From Mesaphorura yosii (taxonomy: Eukaryota > Arthropoda > Collembola > Poduromorpha > Tullbergiidae): a DNA stretch of 22,877 nt. The first letter of the stretch is position 1. Each line of letters opens with the position of its first letter. This document shows positions 1,320 to 21,917 of the stretch, piece by piece. The notes under the pieces were generated by a model. That model ran no database searches. It was not told the DNA's origin and worked only from the letters and a program-made list of their open reading frames with translations. A program made the position numbers and the translations under genes. The stretch is from the NCBI GenBank assembly GCA_009869945.1, contig WIXG01000762.1:1-22877 (forward strand). Reading direction: 5' to 3'.

Positions 1320-1325
1320 TTTATT
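1320..1325 (-). terminator. Polyadenylation signal AATAAA for the giant gene
   Basis: AATAAA on the minus strand, 95 bp beyond the TGA of the giant frame. It fits a 3' UTR of about 110-120 nt and argues for polymerase II expression. A second, weaker candidate lies near 880. Confidence 0.55.
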
Positions 1326-1419: not shown

Positions 1420-4400
1420 TCAATTTGTCTCGGTTGAGTCTTCCGAGTCGACGAAGGGAGTGTAGGCATCGGAAGGCAAGTCATCAGAGGGGAAGTATTC
1501 GTCTCCCGTCTGGTACCTCATGTGCACTTGCCCAACTAAATTCTGGAAGTCGTGTTCGTCCCTCAGCGCCTCCGCCTGGGCCGGGGTGGGGGCAGCTTCC
1601 GCTTCAACCAAAACCACGGCCCGTTTTATCATCGCATCGATCTGAGCTCGGTCCTCGCGGAAGGTTTCGTTGCCCCCTGCTGGGAGGGTTCCATCCGGTC
1701 TCCTCTCCCTTGGCTCGTGTGCGTAGGCCAACATCTTGTGCGCCACGTTCTCGACGGTTTTATGGTCGGTGGCAACGGGCGTGATCCCCACGTCCACGTA
1801 GGTCTCCCGGTTCTTCGTCTCAAGCTCCTTAGGTCTCTTCGACGGGGGTTCCCGCGCCGTCCTGCCGATCTTTGTGAGTGGGACCCCTGCATCCCGCTCG
1901 CCTTCAAGCCCGCTGCTCGCGGCCCCTGTATCCTGCTCGACCTCTGGTCCGCTGCTCGCGGCCCCTGTATCCCGCTCGGCCTCTGGTCCGCTGCTGGAGA
2001 CCCCTCCGGCCTGATCTCCATCAAGGCCGTTCGGGACTTCGAAGGCATACACAGCACCAGGCCCATCCCTTGGAGTCGGTCCCTGTTCCACCCGATCCTT
2101 CACTTCCTCGTCATCGGCCTGGAGCTCTGCGTGTAAATCTTCCTCCCCTGGGTTGAACGCCCATGGGTAGCCCGTGTCTTTCCATTTCTCCTCCCGACCC
2201 CCAACCAACAGAGCCTCGTTCGCCTCGGATGGGTGTCGCTCGACGAGCCAGTCCGCTACAGACTGAATCTCCTCAAACTTCGCCGGAGAGTCGTGAATTT
2301 CGGTGTACGCGTCATTGCGAAGCTCTGCGGATGTTTTGGCTCCTCCTGTGAGGTAGGCGATGACGTCGTAGCCACAGTCCATCCCCCCACTCCCCTGGAC
2401 GGTGACCCTACCCCCCGTCGCCGGGTCCATGAGGGAGTAGTGACCCACGCCTCCTCCAGTCCCCTTCTCAAACACAACAAGCGGCACCCCTTCCGCCTTG
2501 TCCTGCTCCGTGGGGGCGTAGTCGGGCGCGACGATTTTTATGTTGAGCCCGTTCTGAGTGGCAAGGGAGAACATGATCGCCATGTTCGCTGGGGCGCCAT
2601 TCAACGCGCCGTTTGCGACCGAGGCTACTACTGGTGAGGGGGCCGCCCCCTCGCCGCCTGCTTCTACGTCCCTCATCGCCTTCGCGACAATGGCCCTCCT
2701 TTGCCAGGCGACAGTCATGTCCTTCTCGTTGGCACGAATCTGACCTGCGACCGTCCTTGGCCCTCCGGGCTGGTCCCGCCCATCCTCGGCCGCGTTGCAG
2801 ATGAAGCGATCCTGAAGCTCGGCGGAGATTTTCGCAACGAGGGACCCCACAAGCTGAGACGAGATGGGGGACACGAGGTGGGAATTCCCGATCTGAATGA
2901 TGTGGTTCACGAGCATGTCCACAACCACCCGTAGGAGTTGACTGAGCCCAGTGTGCTTACGCGCCTTGAAACCGGCCTGTCTTTCGGCCAGTCCCTTGTA
3001 CAGGTCCTTCACTGAGGTTCGATCCGAAGCGTCCGGAAACTCCGACGCGGGCGGCAACGCGCGCACCAAAAAGTCCGACTGACACTCCGGGCTCCGTGGG
3101 ACGAAACTGATTTGTGACGCAATCGCGCGAGCGCTTTCACTCGACAGCCTCGCGTGCGTCTGCAGAATTTTCTCGACGCTCGGCTTCTGGCGGCTGAGCT
3201 GGGCGTGTACTTCGGAGCAGACTTTGTCCACCACCGTCGCGATTTGGCGCACTCCAGAAATGATGCCGTAGGCGAGCGTCGCCCGACTCGCGACACTCCC
3301 CAGGAATTGTGGTGACGCGAGGATGCCGTTCGACAACGGAGCCCCGACGGAGTTCCAGAGGCTCAACCACTTGGACGCCTTGGGGTTTAACGTTTCTCCG
3401 ACCACGCCCAGAACCCGCAGCCGAAGGTCTTGCAGGGTTGGATCCAGCGCGTAGTAGAAGCCCAGCAGAGCCTCGAACTCCTCCTGGTGGAAATGGAGCC
3501 GCACCTCTTTGCTCACATTCTCCACGATGGCGTCCCGCATTTGGTCGAAGGCGAAGTCGGTGACCCCGTCCAGGAGCGTCTTAAGCGCAATTCGCCCGCC
3601 CGTTTCCGCGAGGGAGACGCCCAACTTCTTGTACGCCAAACTGGACAGATTCTTCCCTGCGTGGCTCACGACTTGATTGGCTGTCTTCTGTCCCGCGCTC
3701 ATGATCGCATTTCCCGCCACCTGCTCCGCCACTTCGGTGGCTGCACTTTGCCCGACGAGGGTCGCGCCCTTCGCCCCGTCCTTGAGCGCCGAGAGTCCCA
3801 TGGAGACACACGAGATGGCGAGACTCACCGCCTTCTGCGTCCCGTACTCGGCCCACGTGAAGTGGCGGGTGGTGTAGATGCGTTGGGCCAGGACGAGGTC
3901 CGCCATCGACTCCGTGATCAGGCCCATGCCCACCGTCGCCCCGAACCCCGTCCAGATGAGCACGACACCCGCCCCTGCCTGCAGGGCCGCGAGCCCCACG
4001 ACGGTGCAGATGCTGATCCACGGCACGAACTGCCGCTCGTTGAAGGTCACCATGAGACACACGCCTCGAGCCCCGAGGTCACGGAGCTCCTGTAGAGGAA
4101 GGCAGTCAGCCATGTACAGGCCCAGGAGCTCCTTGTACTTGCTCGTCTGAATCGTCTCCTGGGCGAGGTCCGCCTTCTGGAGGAGGTGTTGCGCTGCGCT
4201 CAGGTCCAGGCCGGAGCATGTGAGGGAGAAATCTGTGCCAACGTCCCGCAATTTTCTGATGATGGTGCACGCTGTGTCCGGGCTCAAGTTGCCTAGGCGC
4301 AGCTCCGCCGCGTTGAACCCCGAGAGGGCGGCCCTGACTGCGTCTGGCGGACTTTCCTTTCGCTCCGTCTGGTCGTTGCCCTCATTACCGTTCTCCTGCC

Positions 4401-7400
4401 CCTGCCCTGATTTCTGCTCCGGCTCGTGGGGTGGTCGGATGGTGTGAAGCGTGAGGCTGGTGCGCAGTTCAGGCACCGTCGCCTCCAGCAGTTTCGCCAC
4501 GACGTCTCCCAGCACGGCGACGTTTTCTGTCTCGATGAGGAGGCAAAGGGAGCAAGCCGGGCAGTCGGGGTCGCTGTCGCTGAACAGATTCTGGAGCTCT
4601 GCTACACCCTCCTCCAGTGATGATTGCTCTGGGTCAAATTCCCAGACCACGCGACACTGACCCTCCGCATTATCCCCATCACCCTCGACGACCTCCTCCA
4701 CTCGCGCCCTGATCTTCAGCTCTGCGACTGCGACCCGAAGGCTCAGCGCAAACTTCAGCAGCTGCTGACGTGATGCCTCAGAGGCGGAGCTGACCTGCAA
4801 GGTGAATCGGGAGGGCTTCAGACCCGCCAACTCGTCCAGCTTTTCCCCACCCGTCAACACTTCCAGGTCGAGGTTGCACAGCTCCAGATTCATGTCCAGG
4901 TCAGTCACAGCCACACCACTGGATCCGCCCCCGCCCAACTTGTTGAGTACTTTATGGAGGTCTGCTGCGTTGGGGCACGTGACCATGAATGACTCCTTCG
5001 TTTGGCGCCTCAACTTCCATTTGAATGTGTCCATGACCTTGATTGTGTTCACGGCTTGGTCCTGCACTTTGTTTCCATCCTTGAAGCAGGTGAGGTCAGC
5101 AAAGGTCAACTCGTACGACTCGTACGTGCGCCAAGGAATCGTGCGCTCCTCCGTCCGCATGAGGGCGTCCTTGAACGTCCGGACGTTCCACGCTTTCCTA
5201 CTCATCGTTCGTTCGCCTGCGACTTTTTTCTCATTGACCCCCGAGAGGACCCCGAGGCAGGTGACCCGGCGGAGTGACCGCTCCACAACCGCCGCATTCG
5301 CCTGGACATTCTTGAGGTACGAGCCAAGGAGGTTCGCCTTTTCCGTGGACTGCTTGAAGAGGTCAGAGTTCAGTGTCGGTCCGGCTGAGCCGAAACGCTG
5401 GAGGAGTGACTGGGTGACAGTGATGAGCGCCATTTCCCCCGCCAGAAGAGGTTCAGCCAGCCGTAGCTGGTCCAGTGCCAGCTCCTTGTACTCCTCCGCC
5501 GAGTGGGTATCCGCAAACAAGATGGCCCGCTCCCCCGTGAGGAGTGCGTACGCCAGACCTACGCGAGCCCCTGCCGCGAATTCGGGCTCCATCTCGATGG
5601 CCTCGCGGTAGTGGCTGGCGGCCGCTTCCATCCGAGCGCAGTACTTTGAGTCCATGCTGTACTCGTAGTTCCCCAGCTGGGTAAAGTAAAAGGCATTCCC
5701 ACGACCCGAGTCTCGGAGGAGAGCCCCCACTCCTGTTCCTGAGTCGGTCCCCAAGTCCTTTAGCACCGAATTCTTGAGGGAGGTGTACCTAGATAGGGCC
5801 TGGGCCTGCGTTCGGTCCGCTGGGACGGACACGGTGTCCATTTCGTGCAGTAAGATGGCCCACCGTTGCTCCACCGCCTGCATTATTATGACTTCATCTG
5901 GAGTCGGGGGTAGGGGCGCTGGTGGGAGTTGCCCGGTTACTGCGATGCTGCACAAGGCGCTGGTGACGTCCTTCACTGCCCCGTACAGCGTCAACCTCCG
6001 TGCGTGAACCTCCGCCCGCACTTGGCGGTAAAGTTCGCAAAATTGGTCGAAAAGTCCGTCCTTCGTCCGAATGAGGACCAGCTCGTTCGCCTGGAAGTGC
6101 TCCAGCGTCCGTGCCTCCTTCGCGTCCCTTTCCGCAGTCAACGCTCCTGCTAAGGCTGTTACTGTGACTCCTGCAGCGCCGTGTCCTGCAGCTTCTTCGC
6201 CTTCGCTTTCGACTCCCATCCGAATGATGAGTTGTCCGGTTCCTGTCTTCCCCTGCCTGGACGTTCGCCCGAACGCCTGCTCCTCCACACGCAGGCTCGA
6301 GGGGAGGAAGGTGAGGATGACATGCAGGCCACCGTAGCGTTCGATGTCAGACGCCTTGATGTCCGTCCCCCGCCCTGCGAGGTTCGTCGCCACAAAGACG
6401 TCCCCCGGCAGGATCCGCTCGATGGCCTTCTCCTGATCTTCGGCGTTCTTCGTGTACGACTTGACGCGCACGTGTTTGAAGTGGCTTAGAGCGGATGTGA
6501 CCAGCTCCGCGTCCTTTATCGTCTGACAGATGACCAGCACCCCCCGGCGCTTCGACACCTCCTCCAGCGTGCCCACGAGGATCTCACGGAACCACTCGCC
6601 TTCGGAGTCCGCGACGTGATCTGGAAACCGAAGCCACTTCTTGTGGTGTGTTTCGGGGATGATGAAGAGGTTCATGTTGTACACGCCCTGCAGCACATGC
6701 CGGCACGCCTCCGAGCCGAGCGTCCCCGTGAACCCCACGAGTCGGGGTCCGTACTTCTTGAACATGGCCGTGTTCGACATGAAGTTCGTCGTCACGGACT
6801 CGGAGCTAAGTCGGAGGCCGTGTTTGAGCTGGAGGAACTGGTGGAGCCCGTTCGACCAGTTCGTACACGACTGAACCACGCCCGTCGTCGCGTAGTCGAC
6901 GGGCTTCACGACCCCCTCGTCTACGACGTAGTGCACGTTCTCCTGGTAGAGGAGGGAAGTCAGGGCACTCCTGACCCAGGCAGGGATCTGGGCCAGCGCA
7001 TACTCCAGGAGCCACCGCGGGAGTTTGAGGGTGGGTGGGCCTCCAGGCGAGAAGCCGGGCACCGGGTCGGTCGAGATAAGGGCTCGCGTGTACTTCTGCA
7101 GGTGGTCGGACACGAACTCCTCCAGCGTCGTCACGGGGTGAATTCGTGCGCCCTTCAGGTCCCCTCCTTCGACGATGTACGCGATGACGTTCGCGATGGT
7201 CAGCAGCTCCCCGGCGCTGTCAGCAAACGTATACGAGACGACAGGTGTGGGTGCAGACTGTAGCCCGACGGGCTCCTCGGGGGTATGCTGGGCCTGAACC
7301 TGAACTTGCGTCTGTCCTTCCATGTAGTACATTTGGTCGAAGACCCGGAAGAGGTGTGACTTCATGAAGTGGAGGCGATCCCAGATGAGATGGTAGAGGG

Positions 7401-10400
7401 GGTGAAGGAGATCCATACCCGGAAGCGTGGAGGAGAGGCGGGCCAGCTTGGAGCCGTCGTCGATGAACATGGAGTCCACCTCGTCCACAATCGCAAAGTC
7501 GCAGCCCCGCCCGGCGAGTGTCCCAAGCGCGGAGTATTTGTCCCGCAGGTAGTCGAACTGGAACTGGGCACACTCCCCGTACACGACCCGCTTCGTGTAG
7601 CAGGCTTTGGGCCCCGTCACGTAGTCCCTGGCCCGGTCCCCGTTGTGGTCCACGGTGAGCCTGAATAGTTCGTAGAACCCCCGCCACTCCTTCGCGTCCC
7701 GTTCGGCCAGCACGCCGGAGCTTGTATACACGTCGACGGATCGCGCCGACTTGAGGCACGTGAGGGCGGCGATGACTGCGACGATCGTCGACTTGCCGGA
7801 GCCCGTAGAGACTTGGAGGAGCTGACCCTTCGTGGAGTGCATGGATTGGAGGCCTTGGACGATGGCCAGAAGCTGGACATGTGTGAGCACGTAGCCGCAG
7901 GTGAGGTACACAGCTTGGCGGGCAACCATCAGACACTCCTCAAAGTCCAGCTCCGCGTGCGCGCCCGTCTCGGAGCCGGAGCCGCCGTTGGCGTTCGCGT
8001 TAGTCATTGCCACTGCCGCTGCCCACCTCCGCACTTCGCGCTCGCTCCATTCGCAGATGGGCTTCCCCTCGACAGTCATGCGGCTCTTCACTTCCGCCAG
8101 CTGGATCTTCACCACAAACATTCGCAAAGACTCCAACTCCTCGTCCACCCCGATCTGGCCACCGCCACCAGACTCCGCGTTCAGGGCGCAGAATTCACCC
8201 AGCACCGTCGCGACGTCCTTCAGCCCTCCATGCCCACCCGTGAATGCAAACTGGTTCAAAATATCCCCACAGGTGCGAATGCAGTCGGGCGGGTGGAGGA
8301 CCGAGTCGGACGACTTGATGGCGCCTACCAGCTCCGAAAAAACGTCCGGCGTGACGCTGTACTTCCCCGCCTGTGACAACACGTGGCCCACGATCTGATC
8401 GAAGTCGTTGGGTTTCCCGGACACATGCCGCCTCTTCACTAGACTCAGAAGTTCGTGGAGGACGTCGAATGGAATGCGCTGGTGGAGGAGCAGTCGCTGG
8501 ATGGGTGCGGCGGGATGCAGCTTGGAATTGGCCGGGCACAAGCTGACCAGGATCTGCGTTTCGACGAGCGCCTGAAGAGCGGCAGCTGAGAGCGAGCCGT
8601 CCGGAGCCTCCTCCAGCTCTGTCACGATGGCGTTCTTCACTTCAAGCGTCGCTGGGGTCGAAATCGAAGGCCGATGGGCCGCGAGGGCGTGGACTAACCC
8701 CACATACTGCCCAGTGTCCGCCAGGGGACCCAGTTTGGTCAGCAGCAGTTGTTGGAAGCCAAAACCCGTCAAGTCACCCCCCACAGCGTCCGTGAACTGG
8801 CGTTGGAGGACGCGGAGCATCTCATTGCCCACCGGAGTCTGAAGTTTGTGCTGGAGCACCTGGACGACCCAGGAGTCCTCCAACTCACGCACCAGCTCCC
8901 CGACGGGACTCGCGGCACATTTCCAGAACACGTGCAGGCTCTCCTCCAGCGGCAGGTCAGCCATGATGGACAGAATCGTTGAGAATTTAGGCGGGGCTGC
9001 TCCGGGACTGCTGGTGCTGAAGCGGTGAGTCAGGTGCCTGCAGAGCTCCTCCATCGCATCCGGCCCGTGCTGCTTGTACATCCCGTTGAGGAGGAGGACG
9101 AGGCGGATCTCCTCGTCTCTACACGTCGCGAAGGTGGCCAGGAAGTCAGAGAAGACGAGGCATTGACGCCACCTGCAGGCTGGTTGCCCCTTCAGGCTCC
9201 GGACGTCCCAGGCTCGCAGCCCGTACAGGCAGCCGACGAGTTCCTTCGCGAAGCGCTGCTCTTCCTCAGCGCCAGTGGGCGCAACTGCTCCACCGCCCGC
9301 GTGCTTCACGAGTTCCACGCCAAACGCGGCGGATCTCGTTATGATTTGCTGGACGCATGCTTTCGCCTTCTCCAGCATTTCATTACCTCGGCCTCCAGCG
9401 ACGAGGACCGCGTCGAAGTCGAGCCTGGTCAGGACTTTGAAGCAGAGGTCACGATGTCGTGGGAGCAGGGCCGGAGTCCCGAAAAGATCCAACACAACGT
9501 GCACGACCTCAAGGGGAAAGTTCTTCGGTGACTCGGTAGCTAACTTGGACGGCCCCAGTTTGGCTGCTTCGAAGAAGCACTCGAGCGCCGTGGTCGTCAC
9601 CAGCATTCGCATCTCAACCCATTTTTCTTCTGTGACGTTGGCAGCAGGGTCGGAACACTCCTGGCACAGCTGGGCAAGCCCCCTGAGGCATGGCGGGATT
9701 GAACCCCTCGTGCTGACGCCCTCCTTTAGCATGAAGCCGTAGGCGACGAGCACAGACGGATGCAGGCGGACTTCCTCTCCACCTTCGGGTAGGAATAGCG
9801 AAAGCAGCAGGCGTTGCTTCAGAAGCGCCTTCTCGATTACGTCGGCAAACTTTTTGACGTGAACGCCTGAGAGGAGGCGAGTCCTTGAGGCGGGTTGTAT
9901 CTGCAGGCAGTTTGTCACCAGAAGATTCGCAAATGCAGACGAGGATTGGAGGAGGGGGAGGGGGACGAGTTCCAGGAACTTCATGAAGAGCTCGTAGCCC
10001 AGGTTCATGCTCGCAATGGGCGTGGCCAGCATGTTGGCCAGGAATTGTGCCACGGCCACACCCTCATGACCATCACGCCCGCCCGCGACGGCGACCCCTG
10101 CACGGGCACACTGGGAGAGGAAACGTTGAACTCCGATTTTGAACTCAAGCGACCCGCCTTGCCCCTCCACGTGGCGTTCTCCTTGAAGTTGGCTGGCGAA
10201 TTGGATGTAGTCCGGGTTTAGGGCCAAGTAGCTCATAAATGTTGACGAGAGCGGAGCCTTCGCATCCAGGAGCTCCACAATGAGAAGTTTGGAGGTCTTC
10301 TTCAGGTCGGAGGCACTGGCTTCCTCGTCGTCGTCACTGCAGCTGCTTGAATTAGTCACAGTCGCGTTTTCCGCCACCATGAAGGCGATGGACTCAACCA

Positions 10401-13400
10401 GCCGGGTGCTCATTTTAGATTTAGAGTCTGGAGGCAGTCGGCGGAGGAGCCGGAGGACCCGTGCGTGGGCGTGGACTGCGCCTCCTTGCTGAAGCAACGC
10501 AGCGAGTCCCCCCTGAAGGTCTTCGCCTTCATCCAACGCGAGAGCCAGTAAATGATCCCCAGCCGCCTCGAGGGTCTGCAGCAGCCTCTGGCGGTCATGG
10601 CTGGAGCTGGCCGCCCTCACATCCGCCAAGAACTTAAATCTGGCGCGCAGGTCGGCAGGAAGACGCTCCAGGTTCTTGTGGAGGAACGTCTGGATGATGT
10701 TCCGGTCCTCCTGGCTGGTTCCACGAGCAGGACGAGTTTCACACGCCACGCCGAGCAGAATGTTGAAGTCGGCTGCTTGGAGGAGGTCCGGAGAAAGTGA
10801 GAGGAGCCCATGAAGCCCTGTGCTTGCGATCTGTCGGTTCGGGTCCTGCACCGCCTCCAGAAAGATGGGGCGCATGAGGGTAAATGTAGTGCAGCCGCCC
10901 TCCTTCGCAGATATTTGAGGCTTCGTGCCGGTGGCGGATGACGCAACGGCCTTTAAAGCGCTCAGCACCTGGAGGCGGTGGCGGTTCCTCCGTGTCCGCT
11001 TCCAGAACCCGGCCGTTCGTTTGACACGCATCACCGATCGGAGGAGGCGGATGAAGGCCGCGTACTCGAATTTGGTTTTGGGGAATCCAGCAGGGGTGGC
11101 CCACGTTTCGGCGGCAGACTCGCCTTCGCCCGAGTCCTTGCCATGCTTGTCTGAGGCTACCGGAAGGTGTTGCTTGGGCCCATTTCCGCCAGGGACAGAG
11201 CTCGAGCTGGAGTTCCGCCACAGGTCACAGAGTCTCCCTATGACCCTGGCGGAGCACATGGACTCGGTGGCCCCTTGCTCCTCACAGAGTTTGACGACGA
11301 GAGCGAAAATGTTGTCGTAGATGGGCTCCTCTCCTAAATGTCTGACTCCGTTCCCCTGGCTTCCACAAAACTCCTCCAGTATCAGCTCCACAAACGGCGA
11401 CGGAAGCTTCTGGTGATGGGCGACAAGGCTGAGGGTCAGCGAGAGTATCGCCAGGTTTCTGTCTCGATTTTTGGCTTCGGAGCCCGTTTGGAACCTGCTC
11501 AGCACATCCGCCACCAACCCCGTCGGGAGGTTCTGCTCGTTTTCGACAGCGCTCAGGAGACAGCGCAGCACTGGCTCCCAACCCATGTCCAGGGCGAAAC
11601 CCCGACGAGCCAGCCAAAATCCAAGCCTTGACAACGGGCGCCCGTATGCAATGAAGGAGGTCATCGTTTTGACGACGAGCAGTTCGACGTCGAGACCGTC
11701 TCCTGGAGCGGGAAGGGGTATCCAGTCCTTCAGGAGGTGGTGGGCTACATCAGGGCTCGCTTCAGGCTCCCCCAATCTCGCAAGGCAAGTTGCCAGTCGA
11801 ACGGCCATGAACTCCATGTCGACCACCTCAAACATGTGTTGGGGGAGCCCCTGCAGCAAGAAGACCTCCAGTAGGAACCCAAAGGCGTGGCTGGTGGCCT
11901 CCGTGAGCGTTTCGTACCCCACAAAGTTGTTGTAGACGTGGCCCACCGTGGCCTCCGCGACGTGGAGCCCAAACTCGACGAGAGCGATGCGGAGCAGTTG
12001 GAGGACTTGTGGGTGGAGGAGGCCTGCTGAGGGCGATAGGCACTGGAAAAGGATTTCGACGGTCTGGAGGCAGTAGACTGGAAGTGGAGTGCGCGCGTGG
12101 GTGCCGCCGACCCCGACGGTGCCGGGAGTGTAATGTGCCAGCAGGGTTTGAATACAGAGGGCGATTGAGTCTGTGGCTCCGCTGGTGGCCAACTCGCCCT
12201 CTTGCAGCTGCAGCGACCCCGTACGGATTACTTGAGTGAACAGCTGAAAGACGTCGTCTGGGAAACTTGAGACTCGCCCCGCCTGGCTCCACAGAACTTC
12301 CAGAATGGGGGTATTGACGTACTTCGCGAAGTCCCTCTCACCCAAGGTCAGGAGGCTCCCGTCGTGGTCGTAAAGTTTCACAAGCCAACGAAAGTCTTCA
12401 TCCGGGAGCACTCCTTCGCCACCACACCTACACCCGCATTCGTCACCCTCATGGGCAGTTTTCGATCCAGAGTGTCCAGCCGACTCCGACTCGTCACTCG
12501 ATCCAACTTCGTCACTCTCGTCTGTGGAATTCGATTCGGAGTGTCCAGACGTCTCCGACTCGTCACCCGAACCAACTTCGTCTTCTTCGCTTTCAGAATC
12601 CGATCCGGAGTGTCCAGTCGGCTCCAGCTCGTCTTCCGATCCAACTTCGTCATCGTCGCGTTCAGAATTTGATCCGGAGTGTCCAGCCGCCTCCAGTTCG
12701 TCACCCGGCCCGAAGTGGATCCACAGCTGCTGACAGAAGACGACCGTCATGAACACGGATACGTCGGGCACGGTGTCCATCGTGAGGTGGCGCAGCGAGT
12801 CCAGCCTGGGGAGGCCCAGGCACTGATGGGCGTAGGCTGACGCCTGGAAGAGGCACTCGGCGCACGTGATGCGCGTATTCTTGTCCCTCTCCCGGTCCCG
12901 AACTGCTTCGAAGATGTACTCGAATGTTGTTTCGTCGTACAAGGCCCCCGCCGGCAATGAGGAAGCCCCTGACCCTCCGTCGGCGTCGGGAGGGACTGAT
13001 TTCAGCAGAATGTTTGAAACGAAATGCGAGAGGTACTCCAGACCCTCTTCAGCCGCTGGTTTCCTTGTTGCCTCTCCAGGGGCACTGGAACCTGCAGTCT
13101 TCTCCTGCCACTTCTTCAGTGCACACTCTCGTGCCTGGGCGATCAACCCCCTGACCCCACCCGCACCCGAACCCTTCCGCTTCCCTCCGCCTCCGCTCTC
13201 GCCCTGCTGCTCTTCTGATGGTGACTCCTCCTCTTCGGTCCCCAGATACACGAGCCCCTGGCGGTCCACAGCGTCGGCTCGCGCGAGTCTGTGCGCAAGG
13301 CGTTCCGGGTCGGGAATTCGGATCTTGCCTTGACCTCGGACCACCAGGTTGCCAAGGGTGATGACGATGTACGCCTCGAGGCGTGGGTCCTCGTCGAGTG

Positions 13401-15570
13401 TAGTCAGCTTCACGAGGAAGCGAAGGAGTGCCTCCGATGGGGGATTCGCGCGCGCGTCCTTGGACCCGGACCCCGCCCCTTTGTCCATAGTGTGAAGAAT
13501 GGTCCGAATTACGGCAGCACGAAACTGCTGGCGCTCCTCGTCAGGGGGCCACGACTCCTCCTCGGCGACTTGCACTGGCGGCCCGGTGTCACCCGGCCCA
13601 TAATCATATCCAATCCGCCCTGTAAGGATCATGCTGCCCGCCATCCACAATGCTGGGAGGCTTCCGGCAGTGAGGATGGTTCCGACTGTGAGCGCAGTTG
13701 CCTTAGTGACCACTTTCACAACGTCGCTGACGTCGTAGCCGGCTGACGCTGCTTGCAGGGAGATTGGCGTGAAAGCGTGACCCCCGCCATACAGCTCCTC
13801 ATACGCTTCCAGCCACTGCGCGTCCAACCCACCCGGGTGGCTCGCGTGGGCGACGAGGCTCTCGACAATCTCTGCAGCCTGCCTCCGCATCCGGGCCGGA
13901 TACTTCCCGTCGCGATTGGCCACGATTTCGAGCAGCGTGGCGGAGAATTTGAACTTGCCCTCCAGGTCGACGGCTCGCTGCTCGATGACGACATGGCTGG
14001 CGATGTAGTCCAGGCTGGAGGCGCACGTCGCTACCCATGCGGCTCCAGCTGCAGGCTCCAACTGGCTCAAGGACTCTTCGAATGTCTCCTCCAGATTCCC
14101 GTCGTCTTTCATCATGATCTTCCAGATGAAGCGCCTCATCTCCGTGGAGCAGTCCGGAGCCTCCTTGAAGCCACACAGAGTGGCCTGCATCCGGTCGGGG
14201 ATTGCTGGCCGACGCCTGGAGAAGTTTTCGAAGGCTTTGAGCAGATTCAGGCGACAGTTGTCATACGATTTGCCCAGACGTCGGCCGAACAAGTTTTCCG
14301 CCAACGCCGTCACTATGTCGCCGTCCAGATCCTGGAAGGCGCTGATGGCAGCGAAGATTCTCGCGATCCCATTCATCTCGGGCACGCCAACCAGCGTGTT
14401 GGTCAGGTTCACACCAAAGTTCGTCTTCTCCTTCAGCCAGACAATGTCGTCCGCCTTGAGGGGCTCCTTTGCGTCTGCCATGCGGAGGAAATTGCCGATC
14501 TCCCAGCCCGTCGGCTTCCACCAGCTGCGGTCACTCCCACCTTTCGTGCTGAGCAATGGCTCCAGCGTCGCCTCCGTCTGCACATTCTTGGCAGCATTGC
14601 GACCCTGAGCGAGTGCCGCTGACAAGCTGATCGCCTCCAGCTCGGACTTCTCTGATTTATTGTGCTTGACCGAAGTGGCCACGACCTGCTGAGTCTTCAC
14701 CGCGTGGGCCTGTGGCTGGGGGGTAGCAGCGCTCAAGCCCCCACCCAACCCCTGCTGGAATGCTTGGCCACCAAATCCGAATACCGCCGTCGCTGCACTG
14801 CCGCCTGTCTCACCTCGCCCCTTCTTGAGTTTGTCCGATTTGAGCACGCTCAGGATGTCGTCCTGGAGAAGGTCGCCGCCGGTCTGGCGCTTGTTATTGT
14901 CGCGGGCTGCCCAAGCTTCCAAAATCTTCCCGAGTTCGGTTTGGGTTCGGCGGCCAAAGTGGGGCGCCAGTCGCTGCAGTTTGGAATGCAAACCCTCCGT
15001 AAACTCACAGCCAGTGCCCGCCCGCAGCTTGAGCAGTACACATTGACCCACTTCGGGCAGGATGTACTCCTCCGCCTCCTCCGCTGCCTGAACATCTCCA
15101 GCCCCAGCATCCCCCGTCTCAGCACGCGACGTCCCCTCCTCCGTGAACGCCAAGACCAGACTAATACAGTCCGCTAAAGTTGTGAAATCCATGTCATGCT
15201 CCAGAGCGTAACGCAAGATTTGAGCCATCTGGAGGCGCTGTCTTCGGTTCGCGAGAGGATCAGGAAGTCGTGGGAGGAGATGAGCCAAGAAGGAGCGAGG
15301 GAGTCCATGCTTCTTCGCGACGTACTTGAGGATGTCGAGGGCGGTGAACTCAAACTGCGAGGGCGGGAGCATCGGGCCACTGCGGCGGACAGCGCCTCCG
15401 CCCTCGCCCTCGCCCTGGAGGATGTCGATTTGTCCCTCCGCCAGCGCGACTCGCGCCCGCACGAAGCATTCCTCCACGGCCGCCCGCACGGACTCAGAGT
15501 CGGCGGGCGTCGTCGGTGTGAAGTGGTGGAGGTCGAAGAGGGCTCGCAACTCTTCTTGGAAACTCGGCAT
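1420..15570 (-). CDS. Giant intronless SecA-motor protein (4,716 aa)
   Basis: One open frame of 4,716 codons starts at the ATG at 15570 and stops at TGA 1422-1420. The start is the first ATG after an in-frame TGA at 15597-15595 and has A at -3. Order of parts: helical, HEAT/ARM-like sequence (about 1-2500) with a hydrophobic Ala/Gly segment (about 612-655) and a 23-aa acidic repeat (957-1048); a SecA motor (about 2555-3120); a TPR-like stretch (about 3305-3345); a second hydrophobic segment (about 3842-3897); a region with His4377 and Cys4399; and an acidic tail with 13-aa repeats. Bacterial SecA is about 800-900 aa and drives proteins through SecYEG. No signal peptide is evident, and no SecYEG partner is encoded in this window. 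The motor assignment is firm. The role in the cell is unknown: ATP-driven translocation, membrane remodelling and effector-like activity are all open. Bacterial origin by gene transfer is inferred from the motor, the lack of introns and the GC contrast. Confidence 0.95.
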   Translation of the reverse strand: MPSFQEELRALFDLHHFTPTTPADSESVRAAVEECFVRARVALAEGQIDILQGEGEGGGAVRRSGPMLPPSQFEFTALDILKYVAKKHGLPRSFLAHLLPRLPDPLANRRQRLQMAQILRYALEHDMDFTTLADCISLVLAFTEEGTSRAETGDAGAGDVQAAEEAEEYILPEVGQCVLLKLRAGTGCEFTEGLHSKLQRLAPHFGRRTQTELGKILEAWAARDNNKRQTGGDLLQDDILSVLKSDKLKKGRGETGGSAATAVFGFGGQAFQQGLGGGLSAATPQPQAHAVKTQQVVATSVKHNKSEKSELEAISLSAALAQGRNAAKNVQTEATLEPLLSTKGGSDRSWWKPTGWEIGNFLRMADAKEPLKADDIVWLKEKTNFGVNLTNTLVGVPEMNGIARIFAAISAFQDLDGDIVTALAENLFGRRLGKSYDNCRLNLLKAFENFSRRRPAIPDRMQATLCGFKEAPDCSTEMRRFIWKIMMKDDGNLEETFEESLSQLEPAAGAAWVATCASSLDYIASHVVIEQRAVDLEGKFKFSATLLEIVANRDGKYPARMRRQAAEIVESLVAHASHPGGLDAQWLEAYEELYGGGHAFTPISLQAASAGYDVSDVVKVVTKATALTVGTILTAGSLPALWMAGSMILTGRIGYDYGPGDTGPPVQVAEEESWPPDEERQQFRAAVIRTILHTMDKGAGSGSKDARANPPSEALLRFLVKLTTLDEDPRLEAYIVITLGNLVVRGQGKIRIPDPERLAHRLARADAVDRQGLVYLGTEEEESPSEEQQGESGGGGKRKGSGAGGVRGLIAQARECALKKWQEKTAGSSAPGEATRKPAAEEGLEYLSHFVSNILLKSVPPDADGGSGASSLPAGALYDETTFEYIFEAVRDRERDKNTRITCAECLFQASAYAHQCLGLPRLDSLRHLTMDTVPDVSVFMTVVFCQQLWIHFGPGDELEAAGHSGSNSERDDDEVGSEDELEPTGHSGSDSESEEDEVGSGDESETSGHSESNSTDESDEVGSSDESESAGHSGSKTAHEGDECGCRCGGEGVLPDEDFRWLVKLYDHDGSLLTLGERDFAKYVNTPILEVLWSQAGRVSSFPDDVFQLFTQVIRTGSLQLQEGELATSGATDSIALCIQTLLAHYTPGTVGVGGTHARTPLPVYCLQTVEILFQCLSPSAGLLHPQVLQLLRIALVEFGLHVAEATVGHVYNNFVGYETLTEATSHAFGFLLEVFLLQGLPQHMFEVVDMEFMAVRLATCLARLGEPEASPDVAHHLLKDWIPLPAPGDGLDVELLVVKTMTSFIAYGRPLSRLGFWLARRGFALDMGWEPVLRCLLSAVENEQNLPTGLVADVLSRFQTGSEAKNRDRNLAILSLTLSLVAHHQKLPSPFVELILEEFCGSQGNGVRHLGEEPIYDNIFALVVKLCEEQGATESMCSARVIGRLCDLWRNSSSSSVPGGNGPKQHLPVASDKHGKDSGEGESAAETWATPAGFPKTKFEYAAFIRLLRSVMRVKRTAGFWKRTRRNRHRLQVLSALKAVASSATGTKPQISAKEGGCTTFTLMRPIFLEAVQDPNRQIASTGLHGLLSLSPDLLQAADFNILLGVACETRPARGTSQEDRNIIQTFLHKNLERLPADLRARFKFLADVRAASSSHDRQRLLQTLEAAGDHLLALALDEGEDLQGGLAALLQQGGAVHAHARVLRLLRRLPPDSKSKMSTRLVESIAFMVAENATVTNSSSCSDDDEEASASDLKKTSKLLIVELLDAKAPLSSTFMSYLALNPDYIQFASQLQGERHVEGQGGSLEFKIGVQRFLSQCARAGVAVAGGRDGHEGVAVAQFLANMLATPIASMNLGYELFMKFLELVPLPLLQSSSAFANLLVTNCLQIQPASRTRLLSGVHVKKFADVIEKALLKQRLLLSLFLPEGGEEVRLHPSVLVAYGFMLKEGVSTRGSIPPCLRGLAQLCQECSDPAANVTEEKWVEMRMLVTTTALECFFEAAKLGPSKLATESPKNFPLEVVHVVLDLFGTPALLPRHRDLCFKVLTRLDFDAVLVAGGRGNEMLEKAKACVQQIITRSAAFGVELVKHAGGGAVAPTGAEEEQRFAKELVGCLYGLRAWDVRSLKGQPACRWRQCLVFSDFLATFATCRDEEIRLVLLLNGMYKQHGPDAMEELCRHLTHRFSTSSPGAAPPKFSTILSIMADLPLEESLHVFWKCAASPVGELVRELEDSWVVQVLQHKLQTPVGNEMLRVLQRQFTDAVGGDLTGFGFQQLLLTKLGPLADTGQYVGLVHALAAHRPSISTPATLEVKNAIVTELEEAPDGSLSAAALQALVETQILVSLCPANSKLHPAAPIQRLLLHQRIPFDVLHELLSLVKRRHVSGKPNDFDQIVGHVLSQAGKYSVTPDVFSELVGAIKSSDSVLHPPDCIRTCGDILNQFAFTGGHGGLKDVATVLGEFCALNAESGGGGQIGVDEELESLRMFVVKIQLAEVKSRMTVEGKPICEWSEREVRRWAAAVAMTNANANGGSGSETGAHAELDFEECLMVARQAVYLTCGYVLTHVQLLAIVQGLQSMHSTKGQLLQVSTGSGKSTIVAVIAALTCLKSARSVDVYTSSGVLAERDAKEWRGFYELFRLTVDHNGDRARDYVTGPKACYTKRVVYGECAQFQFDYLRDKYSALGTLAGRGCDFAIVDEVDSMFIDDGSKLARLSSTLPGMDLLHPLYHLIWDRLHFMKSHLFRVFDQMYYMEGQTQVQVQAQHTPEEPVGLQSAPTPVVSYTFADSAGELLTIANVIAYIVEGGDLKGARIHPVTTLEEFVSDHLQKYTRALISTDPVPGFSPGGPPTLKLPRWLLEYALAQIPAWVRSALTSLLYQENVHYVVDEGVVKPVDYATTGVVQSCTNWSNGLHQFLQLKHGLRLSSESVTTNFMSNTAMFKKYGPRLVGFTGTLGSEACRHVLQGVYNMNLFIIPETHHKKWLRFPDHVADSEGEWFREILVGTLEEVSKRRGVLVICQTIKDAELVTSALSHFKHVRVKSYTKNAEDQEKAIERILPGDVFVATNLAGRGTDIKASDIERYGGLHVILTFLPSSLRVEEQAFGRTSRQGKTGTGQLIIRMGVESEGEEAAGHGAAGVTVTALAGALTAERDAKEARTLEHFQANELVLIRTKDGLFDQFCELYRQVRAEVHARRLTLYGAVKDVTSALCSIAVTGQLPPAPLPPTPDEVIIMQAVEQRWAILLHEMDTVSVPADRTQAQALSRYTSLKNSVLKDLGTDSGTGVGALLRDSGRGNAFYFTQLGNYEYSMDSKYCARMEAAASHYREAIEMEPEFAAGARVGLAYALLTGERAILFADTHSAEEYKELALDQLRLAEPLLAGEMALITVTQSLLQRFGSAGPTLNSDLFKQSTEKANLLGSYLKNVQANAAVVERSLRRVTCLGVLSGVNEKKVAGERTMSRKAWNVRTFKDALMRTEERTIPWRTYESYELTFADLTCFKDGNKVQDQAVNTIKVMDTFKWKLRRQTKESFMVTCPNAADLHKVLNKLGGGGSSGVAVTDLDMNLELCNLDLEVLTGGEKLDELAGLKPSRFTLQVSSASEASRQQLLKFALSLRVAVAELKIRARVEEVVEGDGDNAEGQCRVVWEFDPEQSSLEEGVAELQNLFSDSDPDCPACSLCLLIETENVAVLGDVVAKLLEATVPELRTSLTLHTIRPPHEPEQKSGQGQENGNEGNDQTERKESPPDAVRAALSGFNAAELRLGNLSPDTACTIIRKLRDVGTDFSLTCSGLDLSAAQHLLQKADLAQETIQTSKYKELLGLYMADCLPLQELRDLGARGVCLMVTFNERQFVPWISICTVVGLAALQAGAGVVLIWTGFGATVGMGLITESMADLVLAQRIYTTRHFTWAEYGTQKAVSLAISCVSMGLSALKDGAKGATLVGQSAATEVAEQVAGNAIMSAGQKTANQVVSHAGKNLSSLAYKKLGVSLAETGGRIALKTLLDGVTDFAFDQMRDAIVENVSKEVRLHFHQEEFEALLGFYYALDPTLQDLRLRVLGVVGETLNPKASKWLSLWNSVGAPLSNGILASPQFLGSVASRATLAYGIISGVRQIATVVDKVCSEVHAQLSRQKPSVEKILQTHARLSSESARAIASQISFVPRSPECQSDFLVRALPPASEFPDASDRTSVKDLYKGLAERQAGFKARKHTGLSQLLRVVVDMLVNHIIQIGNSHLVSPISSQLVGSLVAKISAELQDRFICNAAEDGRDQPGGPRTVAGQIRANEKDMTVAWQRRAIVAKAMRDVEAGGEGAAPSPVVASVANGALNGAPANMAIMFSLATQNGLNIKIVAPDYAPTEQDKAEGVPLVVFEKGTGGGVGHYSLMDPATGGRVTVQGSGGMDCGYDVIAYLTGGAKTSAELRNDAYTEIHDSPAKFEEIQSVADWLVERHPSEANEALLVGGREEKWKDTGYPWAFNPGEEDLHAELQADDEEVKDRVEQGPTPRDGPGAVYAFEVPNGLDGDQAGGVSSSGPEAERDTGAASSGPEVEQDTGAASSGLEGERDAGVPLTKIGRTAREPPSKRPKELETKNRETYVDVGITPVATDHKTVENVAHKMLAYAHEPRERRPDGTLPAGGNETFREDRAQIDAMIKRAVVLVEAEAAPTPAQAEALRDEHDFQNLVGQVHMRYQTGDEYFPSDDLPSDAYTPFVDSEDSTETN
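1884..2000 (-). repeat. Three 39-bp tandem repeats near the C-terminus (13-aa unit)
   Basis: The anchor cccctg(c/t)atcc recurs at 1884, 1923 and 1962, a 39-bp period. On the coding strand the unit reads roughly SSG-x-E-x-E-(R/Q)-D-(T/A)-G-(A/V). It lies in the acidic, probably disordered tail of the giant protein, after the His/Cys region. Copies are nearly identical, so copy number may vary between individuals. Confidence 0.88.
2220..2670 (-). other. C-terminal region with His/Cys motifs, possibly cysteine-peptidase-like
   Basis: About residues 4301-4450. A predicted beta-rich stretch (NIKIVAPDY, then PLVVFEKG) leads to VGHYSLMDP with His4377. After 21 residues comes GMDCGYDVIAYL with Cys4399. 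The HY and DC-x-(Y/F)-x-(V/A)-(I/L)-A elements resemble those of OTU-type cysteine peptidases, but there Cys normally comes first and His last. If real, this would be a permuted arrangement; it could equally be a chance likeness. No domain is claimed. Confidence 0.25.
3880..4045 (-). other. Hydrophobic Gly-rich segment, about residues 3842-3897 of the giant protein
   Basis: Contains WISICTVVGLAALQAGAGVV and then a Gly-rich run up to GMGLITESMADL, followed by a long Ala/Ser/Gly region. The pattern resembles a hydrophobic hairpin of the kind that inserts into membranes. Two such segments, one on each side of the SecA motor, could let the protein attach to or cross a bilayer. That function is inference only. 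Confidence 0.5.
6210..7905 (-). other. SecA DEAD motor domain within the giant protein
   Basis: About residues 2555-3120. Walker A is TGSGKST with Lys2593, where bacterial SecA usually has TGEGKT. The stretch ending FDYLRDKY (about 2660-2677) matches the SecA FDYLRDN motif. Walker B is DEVD (Asp2696-Asp2699) inside the SecA-type run VDEVDSMFID. Residues about 2877-2970 hold the SecA-specific order: VVKPVDYATTG, then WSNGLHQFLQLKHG, then GFTGTLGSEA, corresponding to the SecA elements DxxTGR, WSxGLHQAxExKEG and GMTGTA. The second motor lobe has ATNLAGRGTDIK (GRGTD at 3066-3070) and FGRTSRQGKTG (3101-3110), equivalent to GRGTDI and the arginine-finger motif GRAGRQG. A region between the lobes (about 2740-2900) would hold the preprotein cross-linking domain but is diverged. 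All catalytic positions I know for SecA appear kept, so ATPase activity is likely. The SecA C-terminal zinc motif was not seen. Confidence 0.95.
12427..12702 (-). repeat. Four 69-bp tandem repeats encoding a 23-aa acidic unit
   Basis: The anchor gtgtccag recurs at 12472, 12541, 12610 and 12679, exactly 69 bp apart, so the array stays in frame. It encodes residues 957-1048 of the giant protein. Each unit follows the pattern DE-[LS]-E-x-x-GHS-x-S, then acidic/serine residues, then DE-[VC]-G. The units have diverged from one another. The last runs into a Cys cluster (ECGCRCGG) that could bind metal. This looks like an expanding disordered acidic linker between helical regions. Confidence 0.92.
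13600..13734 (-). other. Hydrophobic Ala/Gly/Thr segment, about residues 612-655 of the giant protein
   Basis: A run of about 40 residues rich in Ala, Gly, Val, Leu and Thr (containing TVGTILTAGSLPALWMAG) with no acidic residues at its core. It is long enough for one or two membrane passes. It is isolated within otherwise soluble-looking helical sequence, so it may be a membrane-insertion segment rather than a normal anchor. Inferred by eye, without a hydropathy calculation. Confidence 0.5.
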
Positions 15571-17360: not shown

Positions 17361-17857
17361 TCAAAATTTAACGTAGCTCGTCCGATGCAGTACCTCGTGT
17401 ACCATGAACACCAATTTGGTCAGACGCTTGAATTTTCGCGCGTAGTTCTCCAGATCGCCTAATTTCGCCCCGGGAAACGTCTGCCTGGTCTTCAGGATGA
17501 GGGTCTTGATCCCCGGGAAGAGGGTGGGGAGGGACGCCAGGAGCTGCTTCAGCTGTGTGAAAGTAGGGTGATCCTTCTTCGTGGAGCTCCAGCATTCGAG
17601 CATCGTCTTGTATCTAAATCGGGAAACCAAATTTGTACATTGCCAGACGGATGCGAAGGTAAGGTTAGGCGTAGGTTTAAGAAGGCAAGGATGCTTACAC
17701 GAGCTCAGTCGCACGCTCAGGCTTGGGCCACCTGAGTCCGGCTCGCAGCTGGATCACGAAATCCAACCTCCAACCTATGCAAGGATAAGGCACCTCGCCC
17801 AGCGTACAGCTCCCACAGAGTGACTCCATAGGCCCAAATGCCCGACTTGGTCGAGAA
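17361..17857 (-). pseudogene. Receptor-type tyrosine kinase, C-terminal fragment with a frameshift
   Basis: Reading down from 17857: FSTKSGIWAYGVTLWELYA (kinase subdomain IX), then GEVPYP, a stretch ending GLRWPKPERATEL, and YKTMLECW with DHPTFTQLKQLL (subdomains X-XI). An 85-nt intron (17698-17614, GTAAGC...TTTAG) joins the last two parts in correct phase. Two defects are seen. The invariant Asp of the S-D-x-W motif is Gly (codon 17842-17840). One extra base in the GGG run at 17800-17798 shifts the frame between LYA and GEVPYP. The ATP-binding lobe and catalytic loop are absent upstream; a signal-peptide exon lies there instead. It is a dead 3' copy, or an intact gene only if the frameshift is a sequencing error and upstream exons lie elsewhere. 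Confidence 0.75.
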
Positions 17858-17892
17858 ATGCATAACCAGTGTTACCATGGCTCCCAACTCAC

Positions 17893-18087
17893 CACGCAAT
17901 TGGCTATGTCGGCGTAGTAAGTCCTCCCGTCGACGGTACCTACGGGTTCGAGTTGGCGGTGCATGAGTTGATCACGAGGGAATGCCACCGCAACGCGCTT
18001 AGTTTCTTCTTTCACCACCGGTGTGGCTCTGGCGAGCCCGGCGAAGGCACAGGCGACAACGATGAGGAGGATGGCGTGGGCATTCAT
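17893..18087 (-). CDS. First exon of a secreted protein, possibly C-type-lectin-like
   Basis: ATG at 18087 begins a classic signal peptide (residues 1-21, hydrophobic ILLIVVACAFAGLA, likely cut after ARA). A short linker follows, then LEPVGTVDGRTYYADIAN, which resembles the start of C-type lectin domains (G-x-x-x-G-x-x-Y-Y, then the AN-x-x-W region). The exon is 65 codons and ends at a strong donor GTGAGT (17892-17887), phase 0. No second lectin exon is visible; the kinase fragment begins only 35 nt beyond the donor, so the gene seems cut off there. A TATA box and initiator lie upstream. The secreted nature is well supported, the lectin label less so. Confidence 0.5.
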
Positions 18088-20000: not shown

Positions 20001-20594
20001 TTATATAGAGACAATGAAAGGCGTAGAATCGATAGCTTGATCAAGAATAGCTAAAATCGGCCAAAATTGATCGTTACCACTTTTACTTATGGGTATCCCG
20101 TCAATCCCTACAGTTAAAGATATAGTGTTTGAAGACAGAACATTTTTTAAACCTGATTGAATCCGCTTGATTAAGCTGTTCTTAATTCCAAAATGATAAT
20201 ATAAACCACCCGCAACTTCAACTAACTCGCTTACTTTTGGAGTTTTCAAAAGTGTTCTCGGGTCGCTTGGTAAATCGATATCTGGCAGTTGCTGGTCAAG
20301 GATTCCTAAAAGTTGTTTTAGAGCCGAGTGGGTAATGTTATTAGACATTGCCCAGGTACACAACCTGCCCCTAAACGTTACTTCACTAAAAATGTTTGGG
20401 ATTGGGTCAGGAATATTGACTTCAGCTTGAGGGCTTAATCTTGGAGCGGGATATCCTAGCTCTTCGTTCTGGCTATCTGTGCAATGCGTATTTTCTAACT
20501 CTAATTCTAAACTACTACATTTTCGTATTTTCTGGAGGGACTGCTCAACAGCGTTTCGAATCCGTCTTCGCTTTGTAGATCTAGGCATGTTCAT
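20001..20594 (-). CDS. Transposon protein (transposase-type N-terminal region), truncated
   Basis: 197 codons from ATG 20594. A basic start (RSTKRRRIRNAV) precedes a CTWAMSNNITHSALKQLLGI motif (about 79-98), LPSDPRTLLKTP (108-119), GGLYYHFGI (129-137) and GIDGIPISKS then FWPIL (163-181). This combination is familiar from unnamed transposase-like proteins repeated in arthropod and cnidarian genomes; I recall it by pattern only. Homologues continue well beyond the PF-x-x-x-I position, but here a TAA follows at once and ionotropic receptor sequence begins, so the copy is cut off at its 3' end. Its ATG overlaps the end of the upstream transposon frame by 14 nt. Confidence 0.6.
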   Translation of the reverse strand: MNMPRSTKRRRIRNAVEQSLQKIRKCSSLELELENTHCTDSQNEELGYPAPRLSPQAEVNIPDPIPNIFSEVTFRGRLCTWAMSNNITHSALKQLLGILDQQLPDIDLPSDPRTLLKTPKVSELVEVAGGLYYHFGIKNSLIKRIQSGLKNVLSSNTISLTVGIDGIPISKSGNDQFWPILAILDQAIDSTPFIVSI

Positions 20595-21917
20595 CTTGAG
20601 GTGTTGGTTGCTTCGCAGCTTTTCGGATTATTCTACCACCATTGCGGTCTTCCACATTCCGAAACCAACTTCCAATTGCAGAGTTTACATCATTTTCTGT
20701 CAGTTGTGAACCAATAACAGTTGATGTCACGCTTTCTGAACACAAGAAGAATGCATGAAACTTGATAAAATTACTTCTGCTAAATAGGCATATTAATATG
20801 GTAACATACCAACAGCTAATTTCCGAATCTTGGTGTCCTTGATGCCGATCTTCCCACTTTGCTGGGTAAATCGAACTTTTTGAGCCAATGAATGATGAAA
20901 TAATTTATTCAGAATGTTGTAAATTGTCTTATTCGCCGTTGAGCCTCCAGTTTTAGATAATACTGCAGCCTGGAATTTATAGAACGATAGTGCAACTCCA
21001 CACAATTTCACATAAGGCTGCTCCTCGAGCTCGAATCCTACTTACCAATGTGTTGTAGTTACGTCCTTCTGCGAGCCAAGCATCCAATCCTGACAACTCC
21101 TCTTCAGTTGATAAAGGTAACACTGGAAGGTTGACGGAATCTTGCATGCCCGAACCACTCAGGCCTCCATGTTTGCTTAGCTCAGCTATTGTCTTATTAG
21201 CGCACTGCGTTAGCTCACTCACGTCGTGCTGAAGGCGTTCAATTTTCTCCAGGACAATCTCCTGGAACTCTGGAAGTTTCGGGTATTGCGTTAAGCTTTT
21301 GGCCTGAAGCAGTTGACATGAACATGAAATAGGAAAACCCTTACGTCTTTGTTCGTTAAGAATAACTTGTACGTTTGGACCAGGAACAGTAACAAGTTCA
21401 AGTGGGCTGCTTGGCAGGGCTCCAACAGCAATATCTTCAATTACTGTAATCAGTTTAATGCGGAGCAAGTTTTAGAGCATTTCAGGGAATATTGCGACCT
21501 TTGTATTTTGATGCCCGTTTTCTTTTCCTGGTACCCGCCGATGTTCCTGTGTCCGTCGACTCCGAATCAGATGTCTGTGTAGCCAGCAGTGCCTCCTTTC
21601 TTGCTTTTTCGTAAGAGCCTAGATTGGAAGTTGCAATTTTATAGTTCCTGCTCCATTGCAGAGCAAAGTTTGAAATAATGCTGCCAAACTTACCAGAGGT
21701 TTTAAGCACACGAACGTCAAACAGTGTCCAATCGCTTTGAGGAACTGAATTCCCAGATTTCAACAAGCTTGAAAGCTTAGCTGTGGTGGCATTTGACCAC
21801 TTACATTTGACACTTTGACCCGCTTGCAGTCAGCCAAGACGTTGGAACCGCTTCCACTGACTCTACGTCGTTGTTTGCACTCGCTTTAAACTCAACAATT
21901 GAATATTTCTTTGCCAT
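20581..21917 (-). pseudogene. Transposon-associated DUF4806-type protein gene, five segments, one frameshift
   Basis: Starts at ATG 21917 with KKYSIVEF and VEAVPTSWL, the usual N-terminus of this family. Inferred segments: 21917-21499 (with a one-base shift at the GGG run 21821-21819, after which the frame reads VKCKWSNAT), 21443-21046, 20969-20810 and 20735-20581. Introns of 76 and 74 nt have good GTAAGT or GTATGT donors; the one at 21498-21444 has a weak donor. The DUF4806 core spans the third and fourth pieces: LPLSTEEELSGLDAWL, then GGSTANKTIYNILNKLF and GIKDTKIRKLAV. The C-terminus has IGSWFRNVEDRNGGR, also typical. The function of the family is unknown; it travels with the transposase-type protein. 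The shift suggests decay, unless it is a micro-intron or a sequencing error. Confidence 0.65.

Follow-up and report, generated by a model that had tools for sequence, protein, structure and literature searches.

Very long secA genes have been described before. Two of them were reported in 2013 from Wolbachia wBol1-b (wBol1_1091 and wBol1_1092); full-length matches were to insect proteins only, Daphnia and protists gave additional ones, and there was little sign of true introns (PMC3639933). When wBol1-b was compared with wHa, one secA was found to be under purifying selection and the other was apparently neutral, and transfer of the giant secA from a eukaryote to Wolbachia was argued for (PMC3639933). 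In the phage WO module EAM, SecA is one of ten types of eukaryotic-like domain (PMC5062602), the term 'eukaryotic-like secA' is used again in PMC9203015, SecA-like domains are recorded in Amoebophilus effectors (PMC3482391) and PMC7046167 names the ordinary secA of a Wolbachia. The gene examined here lies in the window, a stretch of 22,877 nucleotides that is the whole of contig C762 in the 93.0-Mb, 1,127-contig genome of Mesaphorura yosii. It is a member of the already known giant 'eukaryotic-like SecA' family. Most probably it is a springtail nuclear gene, one of at least eight giant-SecA paralogues, and belongs to a family of symbiont effectors that has been domesticated and whose motor threads polypeptides. 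Added here are springtail members from two clades, a predicted whole-SecA fold, tail modules, many more bacterial holders and a tree placing most bacterial members outside the eukaryote-rich clades. Neither these additions nor a tested function for the family was found in searches on SecA in open-licence literature, which is a partial source. The gene and its motor are laid out as follows, in window coordinates and amino acids (aa).

1420..15570, minus strand: giant SecA-like gene, a single open frame of 4,716 aa
5734..8166, minus strand: whole-SecA fold, aa 2469-3279, from a predicted model (model residues 30-840)
6709..7947, minus strand: SecA_DEAD, aa 2542-2954, by Pfam, with Walker A at 2589 and DEVD at 2696, spanning the preprotein-binding region
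6250..6621, minus strand: second motor domain, aa 2984-3107, P-loop_SecA/Helicase_C, with GRGTD at 3066 and GRTSRQG at 3101

The gene starts with ATG and stays open for 4,716 codons. With the dinucleotide composition of the open reading frame (ORF) itself, the chance of such a run is log10 P = -49.3, and 50 order-1 simulations of 22.9 kb gave longest open stretches that averaged 303 codons and reached 393 at most. The GC content of the three codon positions kept the same order across 12 of 12 segments. The giant frame is not a product of chance. The initial annotation had reported a SecA motor within a 4,716-residue protein encoded by a fully open 14-kb frame, and the ORF, Pfam and simulation results confirm this. 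The signatures that it gave as lying in order are all present, namely TGSGKS at residue 2589, FDYLR at 2672, DEVD at 2696, WSNGLHQ at 2905, GFTGT at 2946, GRGTD at 3066 and GRTSRQG at 3101.

Pfam gave 98.5 bits for SecA_DEAD (cut-off 24.6), 41.2 bits for P-loop_SecA (cut-off 27) and 31.5 bits for Helicase_C (cut-off 23.5). The preprotein-binding domain, SecA_PP_bind, scored 20.9 bits in the window protein, below its cut-off of 23.5, and was above the cut-off in the paralogue on contig C918 and in the relative P0002; its region in the window protein falls inside the fold match. The predicted fold of residues 2440-3420 matches a whole solved SecA and extends beyond the motor alone. The alignment reaches residue 778 of the SecA chain, part of the target staying unaligned, and for the helical scaffold, wing and two-helix finger no match to Pfam SecA_SW was listed for the window protein at E 1. 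The best NCBIfam score for SecA or SecA2 was 167.9 bits against a cut-off of 862, and the protein fell far below all eight cut-offs matched; it is therefore not an ordinary SecA.

The giant ORF is intronless and its GC content is 59.5-63% (windows 2001 to 14000) against 39-53% in the flanks. Bacterial symbionts carry giant SecA-like genes, some of them on plasmids, and on these grounds the contig might be that of a symbiotic or contaminating bacterium present in the springtail sample. However, two features of the same contig speak for a eukaryotic genome.

20584..21475, minus strand: neighbouring spliced gene, exons about 21046-21475, 20810-20969 and 20584-20735, with GT-AG introns of 76 and 74 nucleotides (nt)
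1320..1325, minus strand: AATAAA polyadenylation-like signal, 94 nt past the stop of the giant gene

The spliced gene lies some 5 kb away from the giant frame, and its joined product matched DUF4806 at 25.6 bits, narrowly over the cut-off of 25. In addition, the paralogue on contig C593 adjoins DuoxA (Pfam DuoxA, 271.6 bits), whose best match is 96% identical and whose best named matches, all from springtails, are Allacma fusca (57%), Orchesella cincta (53%) and Folsomia candida (53%). It also adjoins a Duox frame coding for haem-peroxidase, EF-hand and ferric-reductase domains; that contig further carries two exon-like stretches of G-protein-coupled receptors and a fucosyltransferase. The nearest rows in the tree described below are eukaryotic. 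Contamination was rejected on the spliced neighbour, the AATAAA, the Duox/DuoxA setting and these nearest rows, and we regard it as very unlikely. As a refutation of its proposal the initial annotation had envisaged a tree placement with a current symbiont and the lack of any link to eukaryotic sequence; as far as tested, the closest rows are eukaryotic and a spliced gene shares the contig. The DuoxA/Duox setting, the spliced neighbour and the AATAAA place the giant gene in the genome of an animal, within the limits of a single assembly. The 'animal-type genome' of the initial annotation was thus right, and it is one gene, DuoxA, that narrows it to a springtail.

SecA_DEAD was found at nine places in the genome, eight of them in open frames of 2,999-4,724 codons and the ninth in a frame of 398 codons. 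The copies on C762 (4,716 aa), C918 (4,222), C837 (3,647) and C221 (3,381) are single frames; C67 also carries one, of 3,954 aa, and the analysis there covers the part before its end. Those on C593, C804 and C546 are interrupted and run on in a second frame, with a TAG in the tail of the C593 copy. Short fragments of the family, from tail or motor, are present on C765, C826, C994 and C874, those on the first three being tail fragments. In BLAST segments the paralogues are 22-51% identical to the window protein.

The ratio of non-synonymous to synonymous substitution rates was replaced by a comparison of four-fold sites because synonymous sites between the paralogues are near saturation. For C762 and C804 the residue identity was 44% over 2,287 codons, and four-fold sites agreed at 36% against 31% expected from composition. 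Four other pairs gave residue identities of 41-44% and four-fold agreement of 30-38% against 25-33% expected, the comparison covering only alignable blocks picked at 30% identity or more, which inflates the residue identities quoted. Since synonymous sites are nearly randomised while protein and frame are kept, the half of the protein that can be aligned has been under strong purifying selection. This bears out the view in the initial annotation that the open frame implies selection. A decaying, functionless insertion would account for the interrupted copies on C593, C804 and C546. However, it sits badly with the open frames of 3,381-4,716 aa on C762, C918, C837 and C221 and with the near saturation of synonymous sites in the pairs C762-C918 and C837-C221, and is extremely improbable.

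The springtail set resembles immune gene families, with at least eight divergent copies, some of them interrupted, spread over two clades. The gene could then be a domesticated defence factor directed against intracellular bacteria that carry relatives of the family. However, no known immune domain was seen besides the tail modules, and such a role seems to us unlikely.

Relatives were sought among 5.8 billion proteins, limited to 0.55-1.75 times the length of the query, and 1,310 scored candidates gave 99 proteins. P0100 was dropped before counting as it has no SecA region by profile. The best match, P0002, is 45% identical, and the best named matches over the SecA region are three proteins of the tardigrade Paramacrobiotus metropolitanus, P0003-P0005 (46%, 46% and 44% identical). 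Other named animal relatives come from Bradysia, Culex, Chironomus, Haematobia, Rotaria, Adineta, Brachionus, Hydra, Hyalella, Daphnia, Plectus and Diploscapter; the named ciliates are Tetrahymena and Paramecium and the named bacteria Megaera, Tisiphia and Wolbachia. Giants are on plasmid records of Megaera polyxenophila (40.5% over 86% of the query), Candidatus Bandiella and Legionella geestiana. Genome contigs from 84,980 prokaryote species were scanned as well; of 176 stretches 126 were confirmed, and 80 loci were kept. The strongest belong to Rickettsia, Orientia chuto and other Rickettsiales, Legionella and other Legionellaceae, Parachlamydiales and a few other metagenome-assembled genomes (MAGs). 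Among 23 bacterial loci examined, 16 frames were clear of the locus ends, 14 of them longer than 2,500 aa. Two loci filed under MAGs of Flavobacteriaceae (L050) and Cytophagales (L052) have giant SecA-like frames of 2,386 and 4,195 aa; these MAGs may be true symbionts or binning errors. Protein WPX99843.1 of Megaera polyxenophila (5,225 aa; L025:347-16024, CP113870.1) is 79% identical over 4,330 positions to the macronuclear protein P0011 of Tetrahymena thermophila. This identity is the result of recent exchange between the symbiont lineage and ciliates. A viral origin was rejected: one scan of viral contigs with a single-sequence query gave nine pattern matches, none of them confirmed, and phage records were matched in 21 cases, the 20 listed covering 19-50% of the query at 28-33% identity.

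The SecA tree was built with IQ-TREE (LG+C20 PMSF) from 69 rows and 616 columns, and supersedes an earlier FastTree tree of 118 rows. It uses 28 of the 99 search proteins, the other 71 being unnamed or near-duplicate or, in one case, P0100, together with 23 of the 80 prokaryote loci. Left out were L059 (a near copy of L060), L068 (which shares its contig with L062) and L069-L123, 55 weaker matches of which many are from planctomycetes and other free-living bacteria. The 63 giants, the window protein among them, split from six canonical-type SecA rows at 100/100. One large clade (15 rows, 100/100) holds the springtail copies C67, C837 and C221 with nematodes, Daphnia, flies, one Rotaria row and Wolbachia; within it a Parachlamydiales MAG and an unclassified bacterium join the three springtail copies (97/89). 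In the second large clade (23 rows, 99/100) C762, C918, C804, C593 and C546 are found together with Paramacrobiotus, Bradysia, rotifers, Hydra, Hyalella and ciliates, as well as one Legionella MAG and Megaera. Here C918 is the sister of Paramacrobiotus (100/99) and the Megaera plasmid protein is nested inside Tetrahymena. A single springtail clade was rejected (p-AU 1.6e-45), as was a single clade for the five copies of the second group (p-AU 0.009, for a group picked after viewing the tree). Springtails probably gained the family through at least two separate entries.

Of the 31 bacterial rows, 25 lie outside the two large clades and their basal order is without resolution. The eukaryote label changes six times on the tree, at least five of these changes being forced by starred branches. 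These two results speak against old vertical inheritance, in which an ancestor of many eukaryotes had the gene, most lineages lost it and bacteria took it from their hosts. That account has in its favour the transfer from eukaryote to Wolbachia argued in PMC3639933, the position of Wolbachia inside animals and of the Megaera protein inside Tetrahymena, and the grouping of springtail, tardigrade and Bradysia copies, which descent within panarthropods would also predict. We nevertheless judge it to be quite unlikely. The proposal of a transferred gene in the initial annotation is supported as to transfer between domains, selection and residence in an animal genome. The new use that it gave as an example, movement of a polypeptide across a host or symbiont membrane, is a putative role. 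Its premise that animals lack SecA is not supported, as the giant secA of insects, Daphnia and protists were published in 2013 (PMC3639933).

Outside the motor the protein has the following regions.

8251..15570, minus strand: long N-terminal region, aa 1-2440, with co-linear weak matches to relatives
5521..5727, minus strand: TPR-like stretch, about aa 3282-3350, placed approximately by correspondence with the C918 paralogue
3691..4113, minus strand: conserved hydrophobic helical block, aa 3820-3960, by family profile
2194..2613, minus strand: OTU-like module, aa 4320-4459, with His before Cys (H4377, C4399)
1621..1872, minus strand: GIY-YIG-like (MUG113/T5orf172) end, aa 4567-4650

Residues 1-2440, in which Pfam gave no match for the window protein, probably form a helical-repeat solenoid; the relative P0044 has HEAT_EZ in its precomputed domain list. 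Three direct repeats with 69-nt spacing (window 12439-12707) lie in the coding frame here and encode an acidic Ser/Glu-rich stretch. TPR_1 was matched in C918 at E 1.1e-4 and 22.3 bits, below the cut-off of 27.8, and the window protein itself has no Pfam match to TPR. The profile of the helical block, which sits C-terminal to the motor, matches 111 of 142 family proteins and 26 of the 31 bacterial giants. A Latrotoxin-like label for this block was dropped as unsupported by Pfam: with hmmscan, neither E 1 nor E 10 brought up Latrotoxin_C for the window protein, and the genome gave no match to it, though no control matched in that scan either.

The window protein is co-linear with many family members to about residue 4458. 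The OTU-like module was found in 33 of the 142 proteins. The H-Y and the Cys of the motif H-aromatic-(N/D/E)...C are conserved; the third position is Ser here and mixed among relatives. MUG113 scored 20.0 bits (cut-off 22.3), and the T5orf172 cut-off of 20 was passed by the relatives P0002 (25.0 bits) and P0005 (46.4 bits). Paramacrobiotus P0005 has the same tail order as the window protein, whereas its close neighbour in the tree, P0004, has a kinase in place of the GIY-YIG-like end, both being unverified gene models. Such differences, with the OTU-like module in only part of the family, might reflect the polymorphic-toxin pattern of a constant core with exchanged C-termini. The P0004 protein also has a Kelch-like region in its C-terminal part. 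In P0055 (Tisiphia) and its near relative P0054 a Ulp1/RickCE-like protease stretch stands N-terminal to the motor, Peptidase_C48 being above the cut-off in P0055 only. The tail model also matched Tc toxins and further helical folds, hits that were dropped as non-specific, as was one to a phage DUF4214 protein in the viral library (E 4.7e-4, TM-score 0.09-0.10). PDB sequences gave no match to the tail at E 1.

The following mechanism is proposed as the most likely one. The N-terminal solenoid and TPR-like parts would recruit a client, wherever in the cell the protein may act. The complete SecA-type clamp and motor would then grip the client polypeptide and thread it at the expense of ATP, a reading based on established SecA biology. 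Tail enzymes may act on the client, in this copy an OTU-like cysteine protease, probably a deubiquitinase, and the GIY-YIG-like end, with other tails elsewhere in the family. A coupling of threading to deubiquitination is suggested weakly, as the OTU-like evidence is itself weak. In bacteria the protein would be an effector aimed at the host, and in the springtail a domesticated or self-maintaining derivative. The block C-terminal to the motor in most family proteins and the differing tails of P0004 and P0005 may instead point to a self-delivery machine, in which the hydrophobic block enters a membrane and the SecA motor drives its own tail across, as a secreted effector needs. We hold this to be improbable.

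Some further observations concern the surroundings of these genes. Ten other flank ORFs, three in the window and one, one and five by C837, C804 and C221, have no Pfam match over the cut-off. A 375-aa receptor-like frame (window 18868-19995, minus strand) scored 20.8 bits for Lig_chan, below the cut-off of 30.8, and had no relative at E 0.001 in the protein search. Split pieces of a kinase C-lobe (window 17364-17971, minus strand; 20.4 bits, cut-off 23.1, and 12.6 bits) may be exons or a relic and were not used as evidence. The contig ends (13-124 and 22766-22877) are inverted copies of each other, 112 nt long and 99% complementary; they may belong to a repeated gene or element where the assembly broke. 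About 6 kb from the tail frame of C546, a very long and intronless open frame of 2,250 aa (L040:750-7499, minus strand) has URGCP-like GTPase domains (204 bits).

Springtails, other small invertebrates and protists have giant proteins in which a bacterial protein-export motor is kept, together with its catalytic signatures and, by prediction, its whole fold, and the family ties intracellular bacteria to their hosts through repeated gene exchange. It is a tentative and rather doubtful possibility that this is an unrecognised class of eukaryotic unfoldase or translocase, in which animals and ciliates run a complete, nuclear-encoded SecA-type threading machine in their own cells, fused to ubiquitin- and nucleic-acid-directed tail enzymes, repeatedly gained from intracellular bacteria and still traded. 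The springtail set offers an experimental handle, since one small animal genome contains several intact paralogues, drawn from two clades, and the model of the motor is confident. For the motor the testable prediction is polypeptide binding and threading, and for the tail it is ubiquitin cleavage.

Compared with known systems, the window protein shares with canonical SecA and SecA2 the whole fold, predicted here, and the ATPase signatures; it differs in being about five times larger and in falling in a separate clade (100/100). The permuted OTU deubiquitinase EschOTU (PDB 6w9s; PMC7396840) is 14% identical to it and has Asn two positions after the His where the window protein has Ser, whose deubiquitinase activity is putative. 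Megaera WPX99843.1 has the motor, the helical block and the OTU-like module in common with the window protein and is 31-37% identical to it in three matched stretches; unlike the window gene it is on a plasmid of a ciliate symbiont and reflects recent exchange in another lineage. The secA of Wolbachia wBol1 and wHa and of insects are, like the window gene, very long, contain a SecA domain, show horizontal transfer and are common to animals, protists and an endosymbiont. Whereas transfer from eukaryote to bacterium was argued in PMC3639933, most bacterial rows here lie outside the eukaryote-rich clades, in a comparison that used family members other than the exact wBol1 proteins. The Wolbachia rows share the 15-row clade with three springtail copies; the window gene is in the 23-row clade beside those of tardigrades, Bradysia, rotifers and ciliates, and is set apart from the Wolbachia type by its OTU-like and GIY-YIG-like tail.
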